Shown here: piece by piece, positions 716-53,170 of the stretch
Layout of the letters: the number at the start of each line of letters is the position of its first letter
How positions within the stretch are numbered: position 1 is the first letter of the stretch
Assembly (NCBI RefSeq): GCF_018383905.1
Contig: NZ_JAGYWA010000002.1
Span: 193,262 to 257,261 of the forward strand
Length of the DNA stretch: 64,000 nt
From: Flavobacterium branchiicola
GTDB taxonomy: Bacteria; Bacteroidota; Bacteroidia; Flavobacteriales; Flavobacteriaceae
Direction: 5' to 3'
Program-made: the position numbers and the translations under genes
Notes under the pieces: generated by a model
Seen by the model: only the letters and a program-made list of their open reading frames with translations
Told to the model about the DNA's origin: nothing
Databases searched by the model: none

Positions 716-1636
716 TTACAAAATGCGAACGCCATCCGGATTAATCTTCGAAACATGAATCTCATACGGTAAATTCATTTTTTCGTAAACTTCGCTCATG
801 GCTTTTGCGATTTGGTCTGCGGTTTCTTTTCCTCGGCTTAAAGCAAAAATCGACGGGCCAGAACCTGAAATTCCAGAACCTAAAGCGCCGTTTTCAAGAG
901 CCGTTTGTTTAATTTGATCAAAACCTGGAATTAAAACGCTTCTTAAAGGTTCCACGATTTCGTCGTGAAGTGATCTTCCAATCAAATCATAATCTTTTGT
1001 GTATAATCCGGCAATTAACCCACCTACATTTCCCCATTGCATGATGGCGCTTTTTAGAGAAACATTTTGTTTTAAAACTGAACGAGCGTCAGACGTTTTT
1101 AACTCAATCTGTGGATGAACCACCGTTGCGTACAATTCTTCCGGACTATCAATTCTGATAATATCAAGCGGAGCATAACTTCTTACCAAAGTAAAGCCGC
1201 CTAAAAGGGCAGGAGCTACGTTATCGGCATGTGCGTTTCCGCTGGCTAATTTTTCGCCCTGCATCGCAAACTGAACCAAATCTTTACGAGAATAAGGTCG
1301 GCCTAATAATTCGTTGATTCCGAAAACCGCTCCGGCAGAACTTGCAGCACTGCTTCCGATTCCGCTTCCGGCTTTTATATTTTTATAGATTTCAATTTCA
1401 AATCCAAAGTCCAATTCGTCCAAAGTCGCCAACATCGCCAAAGCCGCCACACCCGAAACGTTTTTCTCGGTTTCAAGAGGCAAATCGGCACCCACGATTT
1501 TAGTAATTCGAACTCCTTTTTGATCTGATTTTCGAACAATCATTTCATCACCCGCATTGTCTAAGCAAAGTCCCAATACATCAAATCCGCAAGAGAGGTT
1601 GGCAATAGTTGCCGGGCAAAAAAGTTTTATTTCCAT
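716..1636 (-). CDS. thrB: homoserine kinase
   Basis: 306-residue GHMP-family kinase that phosphorylates L-homoserine with ATP, the penultimate step of threonine synthesis in the cytoplasm. The ATP-binding GHMP loop GSGIGSSAAS is at residues 90-99, and the C-terminal GSGISGSGPSIFAL motif is present. The length is normal for ThrB. It lies 178 bp downstream of thrA on the same strand and is probably co-transcribed with it, although a repeat-derived hairpin sits between them. thrC would be expected next, but the window ends in repeats, so its presence cannot be judged. The start is the only ATG consistent with the conserved N-terminus. Confidence 0.95.
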   Translation of the reverse strand: MEIKLFCPATIANLSCGFDVLGLCLDNAGDEMIVRKSDQKGVRITKIVGADLPLETEKNVSGVAALAMLATLDELDFGFEIEIYKNIKAGSGIGSSAASSAGAVFGINELLGRPYSRKDLVQFAMQGEKLASGNAHADNVAPALLGGFTLVRSYAPLDIIRIDSPEELYATVVHPQIELKTSDARSVLKQNVSLKSAIMQWGNVGGLIAGLYTKDYDLIGRSLHDEIVEPLRSVLIPGFDQIKQTALENGALGSGISGSGPSIFALSRGKETADQIAKAMSEVYEKMNLPYEIHVSKINPDGVRIL

Positions 1637-1814: not shown

Positions 1815-4262
1815 TTACACGTTTCCTACTCTAATAACGTCAGCAAAAATTCCTGAAGCGGTTACGGCTGCACCGGCGCCGGCTCCTTTGATCAATAAAG
1901 GCTGATCTACGTAACGATCGGTGTAGAAAAGCACGATATTATCTTTTCCTTCTAAATTATAGAAAGGATGATCTTTTGGAATAAACTGAAGACCTACGCT
2001 TGCTTTTCCGTTTTCGAATTGTGCTACGTATTTCAATCTTGAATCTTTTGCTAAAGCTTCTTTGTAAATGTTTTCAAAATGCTGTGAATGTTTGATTAAC
2101 GAAGCAAAAAAGTCATCGTTGTTTGTTGTTGCCAAACATTCTGCTGGTAAAAACGATTCGTTTGCAATGGCGTCGATGTCCATTTCGTAACCGCTTTCGC
2201 GAATAAGGATCAGGATTTTACGAGCAACGTCAATTCCGCTTAAGTCGATTTTCGGATCTGGTTCTGTGAATCCCTGAACTCCGGCTTCTTTTACCACATC
2301 GTGGAAAGAATTATTCTCATCAAAATTGTTGAAAATAAAGTTTAAACTTCCGGATAAAACCGCCTGAATTTTATGCACTTTATCTCCGGATGCAATTAAG
2401 TTTTTTACAGTATCGATAATTGGCAATCCTGCACCAACATTTGTTTCAAACAAAAACGGAGCGTTATATTGACGAGATAAGTTTTTTAATTTTTTATAAT
2501 TATCGTAAGCAGAAGAACAAGCAATTTTGTTACAAGTTACAACGGCAATACTTTCTTTTAAGAATTTCTCATACATTTCAGAAACGTTTGCGTTTGCTGT
2601 AATGTCTACGAAAATGCTGTTACGTAAATTCAGTTCTCTTGCACGTGCGATAAATTCAGTCGGAATTGCTTCTTCACCTTTATCCAAAGTCGATTGCCAG
2701 TCTTTTAATGAGATTCCGTCTTCATCAAAAAGCATTTTTCTTGAATTCGACAAAGCGATAACGCGAACATTAATTTTTAAAACCTCTTTTAAGAATTTTC
2801 TTTGGCTGTGAATCTGCTCGATGAATTTCTCACCCACATTTCCAACTCCCATCACAAACAAATTCAGCTGTTTTGTGTTTTCTTCGAAGAAATTTTCATG
2901 TAAAGTATTCAGCGCTTTTTTAACGTCTCTTTCGTTAATTACAGTCGAAATATTTCTTTCAGAAGCACCTTGCGCAATGGCACGAATGTTTACGTTGTTT
3001 TTTCCAAGAGTGCTGAACATTCTTCCGCTTAAACCTTGGTGATTTTTCATGTTTTCGCCAACCAGAGCAATAATGCAAAGGTCTTTTTCTACATAACAAG
3101 GATCGATTTTGTTTTGCGAAATTTCGATTTCAAAAGCACGGTTAATTGCTGCTTCGGCATTATCAGCATCCGAATTCAGGATTCCGATACAAATTGAATG
3201 CTCAGAAGAAGCCTGAGTAATAAAAATCACGTTGATTTTTTCCTGAGACAATACTTCAAACAAACGTCTTGAAGAACCTGCAACACCAATCATTCCTGGG
3301 CCTTCAAGCGTTAAAAGCGAAATATGATCAATATGGCTAATTCCCTTTACAACGGTATCTTTTGATAAAACGGTATCAGAAATTAAAGTTCCAACAGCCT
3401 CAGGTTCAAAAGTATTTTTGATTAAAATAGGAATGTTTTTTCTTAAAACAGGCTGAATTGTTGGCGGATACAAAACTTTTGCTCCAAAGTGCGACAATTC
3501 CATCGCTTCCTGATACGAGATATTGGCAATTGGCTGCGCTTGTTTTACAATTTTCGGGTTTGCAGTAAACATTCCGTTTACATCTGTCCATATTTCCAGT
3601 TGTTCCGCATCGATTGCTCCGGCGATAATGGCAGCCGTATAATCAGATCCGCCACGTCCTAAAGTCGAAGTGATTCCGTCTACAGTCTGCGCAATAAATC
3701 CAGGCAGAATATTGATTTTTGCTTCATTTTGAGCAAAATAATCTTTAATTAATTGATTGGAAACCTCGAAGTTTACAACCGCTTTTCCAAAATCGGCATT
3801 GGTTTTTATTAATTCACGACTGTCTTTGTAAACAGCGTCATTATTAATTTGCAGATACGCTTTAGCAATAATAAATGAAGAAAGTAATTCTCCAAAACTT
3901 AAAATAGTGTCGGCAGTTCTTGGAGATAATTCGCCCAATAAGAAACAACCGTCTAATAAAGTTTCTAAGTGATTGATGATTCTTTTTACATGACTCAACA
4001 AACTACTTTGCTCACTTACAGGAATTAATTCTTTTAAAGTGTCAAGGTGTTTTTTCTCGATTTCGGCAACAATATCTCTAAAGCTTTCGTCATTTGCTGC
4101 CGCTTTTGCCGCTGCCAATTGCAATAAATCGGTTACTTTACTTAATGCAGAAACTACAACAACTAGTTTATCTTTATCGGCTTTTTGTTTAACAATTTCG
4201 AGAACGAGTTTTATATTTTGAGCATTGGCTACCGAAGTTCCGCCAAATTTTAATACTTTCAT
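1815..4262 (-). CDS. thrA: bifunctional aspartokinase / homoserine dehydrogenase I
   Basis: 815-residue cytoplasmic fusion enzyme catalysing the first step (aspartate phosphorylation) and third step (aspartate semialdehyde to homoserine) of the threonine and methionine branch. The aspartokinase domain starts at once with KFGGTSV (residues 5-11) and has RGGSDYTA at 203-210. Two ACT regulatory domains occupy about 310-460 and suggest allosteric control by threonine. The homoserine dehydrogenase domain opens with the NAD(P)-binding GVGNVG at 472-477. I place the start at 4262 (MKVLKFGG); a longer in-frame version from 4307 adds 15 residues unrelated to the family. The gene follows a threonine-rich leader peptide, so attenuation control is likely. 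Confidence 0.96.
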   Translation of the reverse strand: MKVLKFGGTSVANAQNIKLVLEIVKQKADKDKLVVVVSALSKVTDLLQLAAAKAAANDESFRDIVAEIEKKHLDTLKELIPVSEQSSLLSHVKRIINHLETLLDGCFLLGELSPRTADTILSFGELLSSFIIAKAYLQINNDAVYKDSRELIKTNADFGKAVVNFEVSNQLIKDYFAQNEAKINILPGFIAQTVDGITSTLGRGGSDYTAAIIAGAIDAEQLEIWTDVNGMFTANPKIVKQAQPIANISYQEAMELSHFGAKVLYPPTIQPVLRKNIPILIKNTFEPEAVGTLISDTVLSKDTVVKGISHIDHISLLTLEGPGMIGVAGSSRRLFEVLSQEKINVIFITQASSEHSICIGILNSDADNAEAAINRAFEIEISQNKIDPCYVEKDLCIIALVGENMKNHQGLSGRMFSTLGKNNVNIRAIAQGASERNISTVINERDVKKALNTLHENFFEENTKQLNLFVMGVGNVGEKFIEQIHSQRKFLKEVLKINVRVIALSNSRKMLFDEDGISLKDWQSTLDKGEEAIPTEFIARARELNLRNSIFVDITANANVSEMYEKFLKESIAVVTCNKIACSSAYDNYKKLKNLSRQYNAPFLFETNVGAGLPIIDTVKNLIASGDKVHKIQAVLSGSLNFIFNNFDENNSFHDVVKEAGVQGFTEPDPKIDLSGIDVARKILILIRESGYEMDIDAIANESFLPAECLATTNNDDFFASLIKHSQHFENIYKEALAKDSRLKYVAQFENGKASVGLQFIPKDHPFYNLEGKDNIVLFYTDRYVDQPLLIKGAGAGAAVTASGIFADVIRVGNV

Positions 4263-4267
4263 TTTGT

Positions 4268-4312
4268 TTTTTCTTAGGTGCAGAGGTTCTGAGTAACAAA
4301 GGTTCAAAGGTT
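4268..4312. repeat. AAGGTTC-family repeat in thrA leader mRNA
   Basis: CTTAGGTGCAGAGGTTCTGAG and AACAAAGGTTCAAAGG are copies of the dispersed intergenic repeat, here lying in the transcribed leader just upstream of the thrA ATG. Confidence 0.7.
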
Positions 4313-4448
4313 GTCAACTGTGAACTGTAACTTAAAACTGTGACTGCTGTTTTTTTCTTTTCTTTTAATGCAATAGTTTTTATGTATCCAATGCCTTTCT
4401 TCTTTTTAGAAAAAAGTATAGATAACCTGTGTTTATATGTAAAATGTA

Positions 4449-4463
4449 TACCCCTAAGGGGTA
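4449..4463 (-). promoter_or_regulatory. stem at the end of the thr leader peptide
   Basis: TACCCC, loop TTA, GGGGTA on the coding strand covers the last Thr codon, the Pro codon and the stop codon of the leader peptide. A ribosome stalled on the Thr run would cover or melt it. A classic U-rich terminator further downstream is not evident by eye. Confidence 0.5.
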
Positions 4464-4555
4464 GTAGTTGTTGTAGTAGAAATAATGGTAGCAGCAATTG
4501 CAACTCTTGTTTGAGTTGTCATTGTAGATTGATATTTTGTGCTGTTACTTTTCAT
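4454..4555 (-). CDS. threonine/isoleucine-rich leader peptide of the thr operon
   Basis: A 33-codon ORF on the thrA strand that ends 191 nt before the thrA start. It begins MKSNSTKYQS. Its last residues include Ile-Ile-Ser, then six consecutive Thr codons (ACT ACA ACA ACT ACT ACC), Pro and TAG. Twelve of the 33 residues are Thr and three are Ile. This matches the logic of enterobacterial ThrL, in which stalling on scarce Thr and Ile tRNAs prevents attenuation. The final codons and the stop lie in a small perfect stem (TACCCC-TTA-GGGGTA) on the coding strand. The function is inferred from composition and position; the sequence is not directly similar to E. coli ThrL. Confidence 0.82.
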   Translation of the reverse strand: MKSNSTKYQSTMTTQTRVAIAATIISTTTTTTP

Positions 4556-4565
4556 TTTGATTTTT

Positions 4566-4573
4566 CAAAAGTA
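4566..4573 (-). promoter_or_regulatory. -7 box of the thr leader promoter
   Basis: TACTTTTG fits the Bacteroidota -7 consensus TANNTTTG and lies 10 nt before the leader-peptide ATG. No clear TTG -33 element was seen. Confidence 0.55.
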
Positions 4574-53061: not shown

Positions 53062-53170
53062 ATGAAACCGAGTGCCCCAGCCCTGATGGGAGCGGCATCC
53101 TTTTGTGTCTCGTTTTTTTTCTAACGAGACGCAAAAGATACAGCGGACAGCAGGAAACAGCTCCTGAAAA
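53062..53170. ncRNA. candidate structured RNA or extragenic element
   Basis: A 15-bp stem CTTTTGTGTCTCGTT / AACGAGACGCAAAAG (53100-53114 with 53123-53137, one T-to-G wobble pair) is enclosed by GGAGC / GCTCC (53089-53093 with 53160-53164). Unpaired CCGAGTGCCCCAGCCCTGAT and AGCGGACAGCAGGAAACAG flank the stem. I recall such flanks recurring in many Bacteroidota intergenic regions with different inner stems. The transcribed strand is unknown. Confidence 0.5.

Follow-up and report, generated by a model that had tools for sequence, protein, structure and literature searches.

The thrA gene of Flavobacterium branchiicola is preceded by a short ORF rich in threonine and isoleucine codons. Its last threonine codon and its stop codon lie within a small hairpin (hairpin B), which is followed at a narrow spacing by a conserved motif, (A/T)CATATNNTCC. 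This Thr-rich ORF is probably a ribosome-mediated attenuator, with hairpin B and the motif as the stop signal. Judged from the sequences compared here, the case for the half of the device that would sense threonine and isoleucine is strong; for the half that would stop the polymerase, we infer that transcription termination is the output.

A Thr/Ile leader ORF precedes thrA

The window (the whole stretch of 64,000 nucleotides that was analyzed) contains, at positions 4454..4555 of the minus strand, a 33-codon ORF encoding the peptide MKSNSTKYQSTMTTQTRVAIAATIISTTTTTTP and ending with a TAG stop codon at 4456-4454. In agreement with the original prediction, the ORF ends 191 nt before thrA (distance from the stop codon to the ATG at 4262) and contains 12 Thr codons, six of which are consecutive (ACT ACA ACA ACT ACT ACC, 4460..4477, minus strand). 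The Ile-Ile pair said to stand just before this run is present but not adjacent to it, one Ser being interposed. The stop codon was correctly placed in a small stem: TAG straddles the loop and the first G of the 3' arm of TACCCC-TTA-GGGGTA (hairpin B, 4449..4463, minus strand), which also includes the last Thr codon and the Pro codon. The 64-kb window contained a single run of six ACN codons, and none of 100 dinucleotide shuffles contained one.

The 33-codon start is likely since an MK(S/N)NS start was kept in most loci and the inner Met was often replaced by Ile. The start codon is preceded by A at positions -3 and -6, a context reported as favorable in F. johnsoniae (PMC6847099). The octamer TACTTTTG (4566..4573, minus strand), located 10 nt before the leader ATG, is a predicted -7 promoter box according to the consensus TAnnTTTG given in PMC9723704, and the leader is predicted to have a very short 5' untranslated region. 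A TAnnTTTG box was found 88-138 nt before hairpin B in the 61 leaders kept for this comparison, from which leaders lacking a box were excluded.

The predicted target of the leader, thrA (1815..4262, minus strand), encodes a bifunctional aspartate kinase/homoserine dehydrogenase I (NF006959, 1048 bits for a cut-off of 726); the thrA genes of the closest named relatives are 96% identical. It is followed, after 178 nt, by thrB (716..1636, minus strand) and, about 1.1 kb past thrB and outside the window, by thrC on the same strand (TIGR00260, 306 bits). The three genes are presumably carried by one transcript. The hutH gene is divergent and lies on the far side of the leader from thrA. The gap between the leader and thrA is about 80 nt longer in the window than in half of the relatives, the long form being present in 40 of the 80 named Flavobacterium loci. 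Comparison with these loci and matches within the genome itself assigned the additional DNA to a dispersed repeat (4270..4345, minus strand), which it resembles, with nine own-genome matches including itself, the other eight spanning about half of the query. A tandem repeat with a unit of about 198 nt and an open frame across it occupies positions 19-659 of the window, between thrB and thrC. The only Rfam match above the gathering score in the window was a Flavo-1 RNA at 53075-53161 (plus strand).

Conservation and distribution of the leader

The conservation of the leader ORF exceeds chance. Thr-run ORFs, searched for upstream of thrA in relatives, were present at each of the 80 thrA loci retrieved for named members of Flavobacterium. 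Across 109 loci of the genus, the five codons preceding the terminal ACC specified Thr in 511 of 545 cells, as ACA, ACT, ACC, or ACG. The stop codon was displaced by 2-28 codons at four loci (L021, L030, L032, and L042), all of which retained hairpin B.

The survey of the family was based on 120 Flavobacteriaceae genomes, one per genus, with a threshold of E ≤ 1e-200 for thrA, which was detected in 88 genomes including that of F. branchiicola. Upstream DNA was inspected in 49 of the 87 other genomes with thrA, the leaders being sorted by eye with the help of patterns, as were those from outside the family. In 43 of these 49 genera, thrA was preceded by a Thr/Ile ORF with hairpin B at its end, some of the 43 having few Thr codons (L131, L138, L142, and L152). 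The other six comprise L146, L159, and L162, in which inspection by eye revealed nothing upstream of thrA, and L155, L156, and L161. In these last three, as in L186-L189, thrA immediately follows the end of an ilvA-like frame, without a leader, and control may have shifted to the front of an ilv operon.

The sample of the phylum comprised 148 genomes, 106 of which contained thrA. Six further members of the family belonged to this sample (L167-L172); the element was present in four of them and absent from two. Outside the family, 37 thrA regions were sorted. Hairpin B preceded thrA in ten (families f2, f4, and f21), mostly together with the motif. Five had a leader and a canonical terminator (four in f3, one in f4), and three, in f8, had their stop codon enclosed by a short hairpin. 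No leader was visible in the remaining 19, which include four f21 genomes with thrA after ilvA. The three f8 leaders (L193, L196, and L198) have their stop codon within a small hairpin such as ACGGGGTGACCCGT, and the terminator scan found no terminator in them.

Codon usage was examined in 57 diverse leaders with hairpin B, 56 from other genera and one from a divergent member of the genus (L166). With the frame-fixing final ACC excluded, the nine codons before it comprised 178 Thr and 129 Ile codons, together 307 of 513, against only 15 and 11 of 513 in the two shifted frames of the same leaders. Two leaders, L190 (chance hairpin B) and L142 (weak stem), were excluded from the composition, codon, spacing, basal-extension, terminator, and pairing counts. 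The peptide varies between genera over its N-terminal two thirds, and the Thr/Ile end and the hairpin are retained. Thr and Ile codons are thus kept in frame across species through synonymous changes, as expected of a ribosome-mediated attenuator. Conservation, in-frame enrichment, synonymous change, and linkage to thrA together bear out the proposal of a Thr/Ile leader before thrA that does not resemble E. coli ThrL in sequence.

Conserved hairpins in the leader

RNAalifold, run unaided on 35 leaders of the genus, returned three hairpins, A, B, and C. In these hairpins 95.0% of the cells were paired and 9 of the 19 pairs were compensatory; none of 500 shuffles matched any of the five measures, and shifting the partners cut pairing to 45-66%. 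Hairpin A (CAACTC-AAACAA-GAGTTG, 4501..4518, minus strand) lies within the ORF, and four of five of its pairs changed on both sides. Hairpin B is nearly invariant within the genus and takes various forms across genera, including ACCCC-UUU-GGGGU, CAACCC-UUU-GGGGUUG, and AACCCGUUAGGGUU. It overlaps the control codons next to the leader stop, an arrangement expected of an attenuator. Hairpin C (4395..4416, minus strand) has a U-rich 5' arm and a purine-rich 3' arm and is not followed by a U tract. Four of its eight pairs changed on both sides within the genus. It is often weak outside the genus, and in 7 of 61 leaders the region contained no hairpin.

A basal extension of hairpin B was considered and rejected: the mean gain over arm swaps was 0.47 kcal/mol in the 57 diverse leaders (p 0.04), and in 19 Flavobacterium leaders the mean was 0.00, with a Wilcoxon p of 0.002 for a negligible shift. 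For L121, L126, L131, and L143, the analyses of the long-range helix P1 (see below), hairpin C, the motif profile, and the second motif copy used earlier placements of hairpin B or lacked it.

A motif at a narrow distance from hairpin B

The motif (A/T)CATATNNTCC is conserved 9-10 nt after hairpin B. The window has a divergent copy, ACATATAAACA (4430..4440, minus strand), a predicted polymerase signal. A pattern requiring NATC after ATAT had no match in the F. branchiicola genome, the copy in the window lacking NATC at that place. The distance from the last G of hairpin B to the motif, which was sought within about 34 nt of the hairpin only, was 10.3 nt (sd 0.44) in 19 of 19 leaders of the genus. 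In the diverse set it was 9.6 nt (sd 1.25), exactly 9 nt in 28 of 46 leaders, 11 of the 57 having been omitted for a motif score under 5. The distance from the motif to thrA had an sd of 20 nt in the diverse leaders and 45 nt in those of the genus. The sharpness of the motif profile arises partly by construction because the best match was taken in each leader.

In many relatives, the 5' portion of the leader ORF contains a second, imperfect copy of ACATATNNTCC (window 4515-4535 and homologous parts). This copy occurs in two different reading frames and is weak in the leader of the window itself. The test for it, from which L126 and L190 were omitted, gave a Fisher p of 1.6e-8 over 57 leaders, which are related and hence non-independent, with p ≤ 0.05 in 15 of the 57 and in 14 of 19 leaders of the genus.

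A covariance model of hairpin B and the motif is largely specific for thr loci

A covariance model of hairpin B and the motif, designated R1, was built from 51 sequences. Its recovery of its own training sequences is by construction, which does not apply to the single copy per genome or to the absence of matches from genomes without thrA. Among 37 genomes of the genus, R1 matched 22 of the 25 with thrA-I and none of the 12 without it. Visual inspection of the three negative genomes with thrA-I revealed a divergent Thr leader in one (G020) and none in the other two. R1 also missed some loci at which hairpin B was seen by eye, such as L173 and L174.

Among 60 relatives, R1 matched 27 genomes at E ≤ 0.5, once each. 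Twenty-five of these matches preceded thrA and one preceded thrB (G342); the remaining one was L253 (E 0.198). The match in G342 is marginal (E 0.088) and is followed, after thrB, by a thrC-like frame recognized by eye. The leader of this genome ends TTTHTITPWG and has a hairpin B of -16.3 kcal/mol, then AUAUUUUCCAUUUUUU. Five matches were obtained at the level of the order, of which L249, L250, and L251 precede thrA, the other two being those of G342 and L253. L252, from the same order, is a Thr leader located before thrB rather than thrA; its hairpin B is long and its tail U-rich. In the phylum sample, 18 of 148 genomes matched at E ≤ 0.05, and 17 of the 18 matches were located 51-161 nt before thrA. 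The other one (G196, E 0.001) was regarded as a chance match, since the gene that follows it is polyprenyl-synthetase-like and has no Thr leader.

Terminators and alternative pairings

A scan for terminators did not find a canonical U-tract terminator between the leader and thrA. The scan was positive for 55 of the 80 named loci, which are close relatives (shuffled mean 0.4), for 5 of 19 diverse leaders of the genus (shuffled mean 0.4), and for 11 of the 57 others (shuffled mean 0.2); the hairpin detected was B in 54, 4, and 10 cases, respectively. Terminators other than hairpin B were thus limited to one leader in each of the three sets (1/80, 1/19, and 1/57). A U-rich tail after hairpin B was missing in most diverse leaders. 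The same scan detected terminators in 17 of 17 hisG leaders and in five of five canonical Thr leaders.

Among the alternative antiterminator pairings that were scored, no candidate was clearly supported. A long-range helix, P1, between the 5' part of the leader and the region after hairpin B (e.g. CGGAC:GUCCG) was good in a few genera and was not general: same-species pairing amounted to -8.0 kcal/mol versus -7.4 kcal/mol for cross-species pairing, with a mean rank of 0.44 and 7 of 61 leaders in the best tenth. Hairpin D, in which the motif would pair with the AUUAUAU that precedes the U-rich stretch of the genus, was rejected, with a mean z of -0.23 and p ≤ 0.05 in 5 of 36 leaders. Pairing of the stretch before the U-rich run with the 3' flank of hairpin B or with the motif gave mean ranks of 0.435 and 0.492, respectively (26 of 28 leaders in both cases).

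No Rfam family, including the T-box riboswitch and other cis elements, approached its gathering score in the 5' region of thrA, and the threonine leader family RF00506 did not match the leader of the window even at E ≤ 10. RF00506 was unspecific in the phylum sample, matching 139 of 148 genomes at E ≤ 1, and its single match over the cut-off (G250) was on a different contig from thrA. The sub-threshold Thr_leader scores of L194 (36 bits) and L195 (31.7 bits) therefore carry little weight.

Proposed mechanism and alternatives

In view of the codons, their placement in hairpin B, and the linkage to thr genes, the element is best read as a device by which the ribosome senses the supply of threonine (and isoleucine). 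The leader ORF is presumably translated, and ribosomes would stall on it. Scarcity of threonyl-tRNA would cause the ribosome to wait on the Thr codons and to hold hairpin B open, and RNA polymerase would continue into thrA. If threonine were ample, the ribosome would exit at the stop codon, which would allow hairpin B to fold again and would probably terminate transcription prematurely. Hairpin B and (A/T)CATATNNTCC would then form a polymerase pause or termination signal, with Rho possibly assisting. They are favored as the stop signal because their spacing is narrow, as in a hairpin-dependent polymerase signal, and because hairpin B is nearly the sole terminator-like hairpin in the leader scan. 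Moreover, half of the named loci tolerate the additional 80 nt or so, which speaks against a local masking of the thrA start; the output would thus be exerted from a distance, with elongation a likelier target than the thrA start site. The geometry counts against hairpin B as the stop: an unstalled ribosome keeping pace with the polymerase would also cover it, so that the polymerase would have to linger just downstream. The lack of a U-rich tail after hairpin B in most diverse leaders, the divergent motif copy of the window, and the low motif scores of 11 of the 57 leaders also weigh against this choice. The original assignment to ribosome-mediated attenuators is supported in part: hairpins A, B, and C are conserved, but neither a canonical U-tract terminator downstream nor a supported antiterminator was found in this class of leaders.

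In a more specific form, which we propose tentatively and hold to be short of an even chance, this attenuator would work by direct overlap. The final Thr codon and the stop codon would provide the 5' arm and the loop of the stop hairpin itself, the signal would be the precisely spaced (A/T)CATATNNTCC without a U tract, and one hairpin would replace the terminator/antiterminator pair. Such a device would be common to Flavobacteriaceae and to distant families of the phylum, a sister family being classical for the same gene.

Rho-dependent termination of the tna type, which does not require a canonical terminator, appears rather unlikely. According to this alternative, a ribosome stalled on the Thr codons would shield a C-rich, G-poor leader, and Rho would load after its release and stop transcription before translation of thrA. 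Base composition is consistent with this proposal outside the genus, where the stretch after hairpin B contained 19.2% C and 7.4% G and the ORF part 20.9% C and 12.2% G (57 leaders), the reference thrA coding DNA of the named loci containing 17.1% C and 19.3% G. However, the Thr codons themselves make the ORF C-rich, the stretch after hairpin B is not C-rich within the genus (13.3% C, 10.3% G), and the narrow spacing between hairpin B and the motif is left unexplained.

We also consider it unlikely that the leader is a classical three-part attenuator. Hairpin B would then be the 1:2 protector or pause hairpin, hairpin C, at the 3:4 place, would stop the polymerase without a U tract, and a stalled ribosome would free the 3' arm of hairpin B to disturb hairpin C. 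The topology and the distance fit, since hairpin C begins about 25-33 nt past hairpin B in most of the leaders in which it was found; its covariation within the genus (four of eight pairs) and the use of a classical design for the same gene in a related family point in the same direction. The absence of a U tract after hairpin C, the detection of C-like terminators in only 1 of 19 leaders of the genus and 1 of 57 others, and the 7 of 61 leaders with no hairpin in the region argue against it, as does the lack of support for a 2:3 pairing.

It is very improbable that the element acts solely at the RNA level, e.g. through a protein binding the repeated ACATAT motif, with an incidental leader ORF: the motif is conserved at the nucleotide level and has an imperfect second copy in the leader, but an untranslated element would not need Thr and Ile codons kept in one frame by synonymous change. 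Although the run is short and repetitive and short ORFs are frequent by chance (102 of at least 25 amino acids in 12 kb), the ORF is almost certainly neither a low-complexity Thr run that arose by chance nor a small protein with a function of its own, in view of the 80 of 80 named loci, the 0 of 100 shuffles, and the divergence of the peptide between genera over its N-terminal two thirds, the Thr/Ile end and the hairpin being kept.

Comparison with known systems

The leader is a defined cis element linked to threonine synthesis, and RNA-based control of amino-acid supply has hardly been worked out in this phylum. For F. psychrophilum, strong clues for leader-peptide attenuation before amino-acid operons were reported, and elements of pheA and hisG were named (PMC9723704). 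Leader-peptide attenuation has thus been proposed in the same genus; the words threonine and thrA are absent from the main text of that article, the supplement of which may list thrA. Leader-peptide-like sORFs are also mentioned for B. thetaiotaomicron (PMC7366714). A literature search covering few subscription journals found no paper on a thr attenuator of Bacteroidota. The statement that such control is little described in Bacteroidota was therefore roughly right, apart from the earlier clues in F. psychrophilum. The genus has good genetics (F. johnsoniae), and, should the motif prove to be a polymerase signal, hairpin-dependent pausing or termination would become accessible to study in Bacteroidota for the first time.

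A second amino-acid leader of the same genome precedes hisG (L219, G000:C31:117591). It is a canonical histidine attenuator, with the leader MFSNQLHHHHFHYCSQAMC; a terminator was present at 17 of 17 hisG loci of relatives. The His and Thr leaders both have a run of the amino acid of their pathway (QLHHHHFHYC for the former). Unlike the Thr leader, the His leader has a canonical terminator, AAAACCCGTTTGAGTACATCAAACGGGTTTT, with a T-rich tail. Since both are present in one genome, the terminator-based design and the hairpin-plus-motif design could be compared in a single strain.

In E. coli, the thrL leader peptide, rich in Thr and Ile codons, is encoded directly before a gene set that begins with thrA. 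The Flavobacterium leader shares with thrL (RF00506) this Thr/Ile-rich composition and this position before a thrA-first gene set. It differs from thrL by the absence of a U-tract terminator and by the location of the last Thr codon and the stop codon inside hairpin B. A Thr/Ile-type leader before thrA is also common to the Flavobacterium element and the canonical Thr attenuators of other Bacteroidia (L191, L194, L195, and L201 of f3; L197 of f4). In contrast to the Flavobacterium leader, the latter have long GC-rich terminators with U tracts, detected by the scan in five of five cases. In L195, pairing of GGAGGAAG with CTTCCTCC likely forms the antiterminator.

The closing comparison is with E. 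coli pyrL-pyrBI, in which the leader ORF enters the stop hairpin and the position of the ribosome directly decides folding. That system senses UTP through the speed of the polymerase. The Flavobacterium leader, if hairpin B is its stop hairpin, and pyrL-pyrBI have in common a leader ORF that enters the stop hairpin, whereas the signal in pyrL-pyrBI is UTP and not an amino acid.
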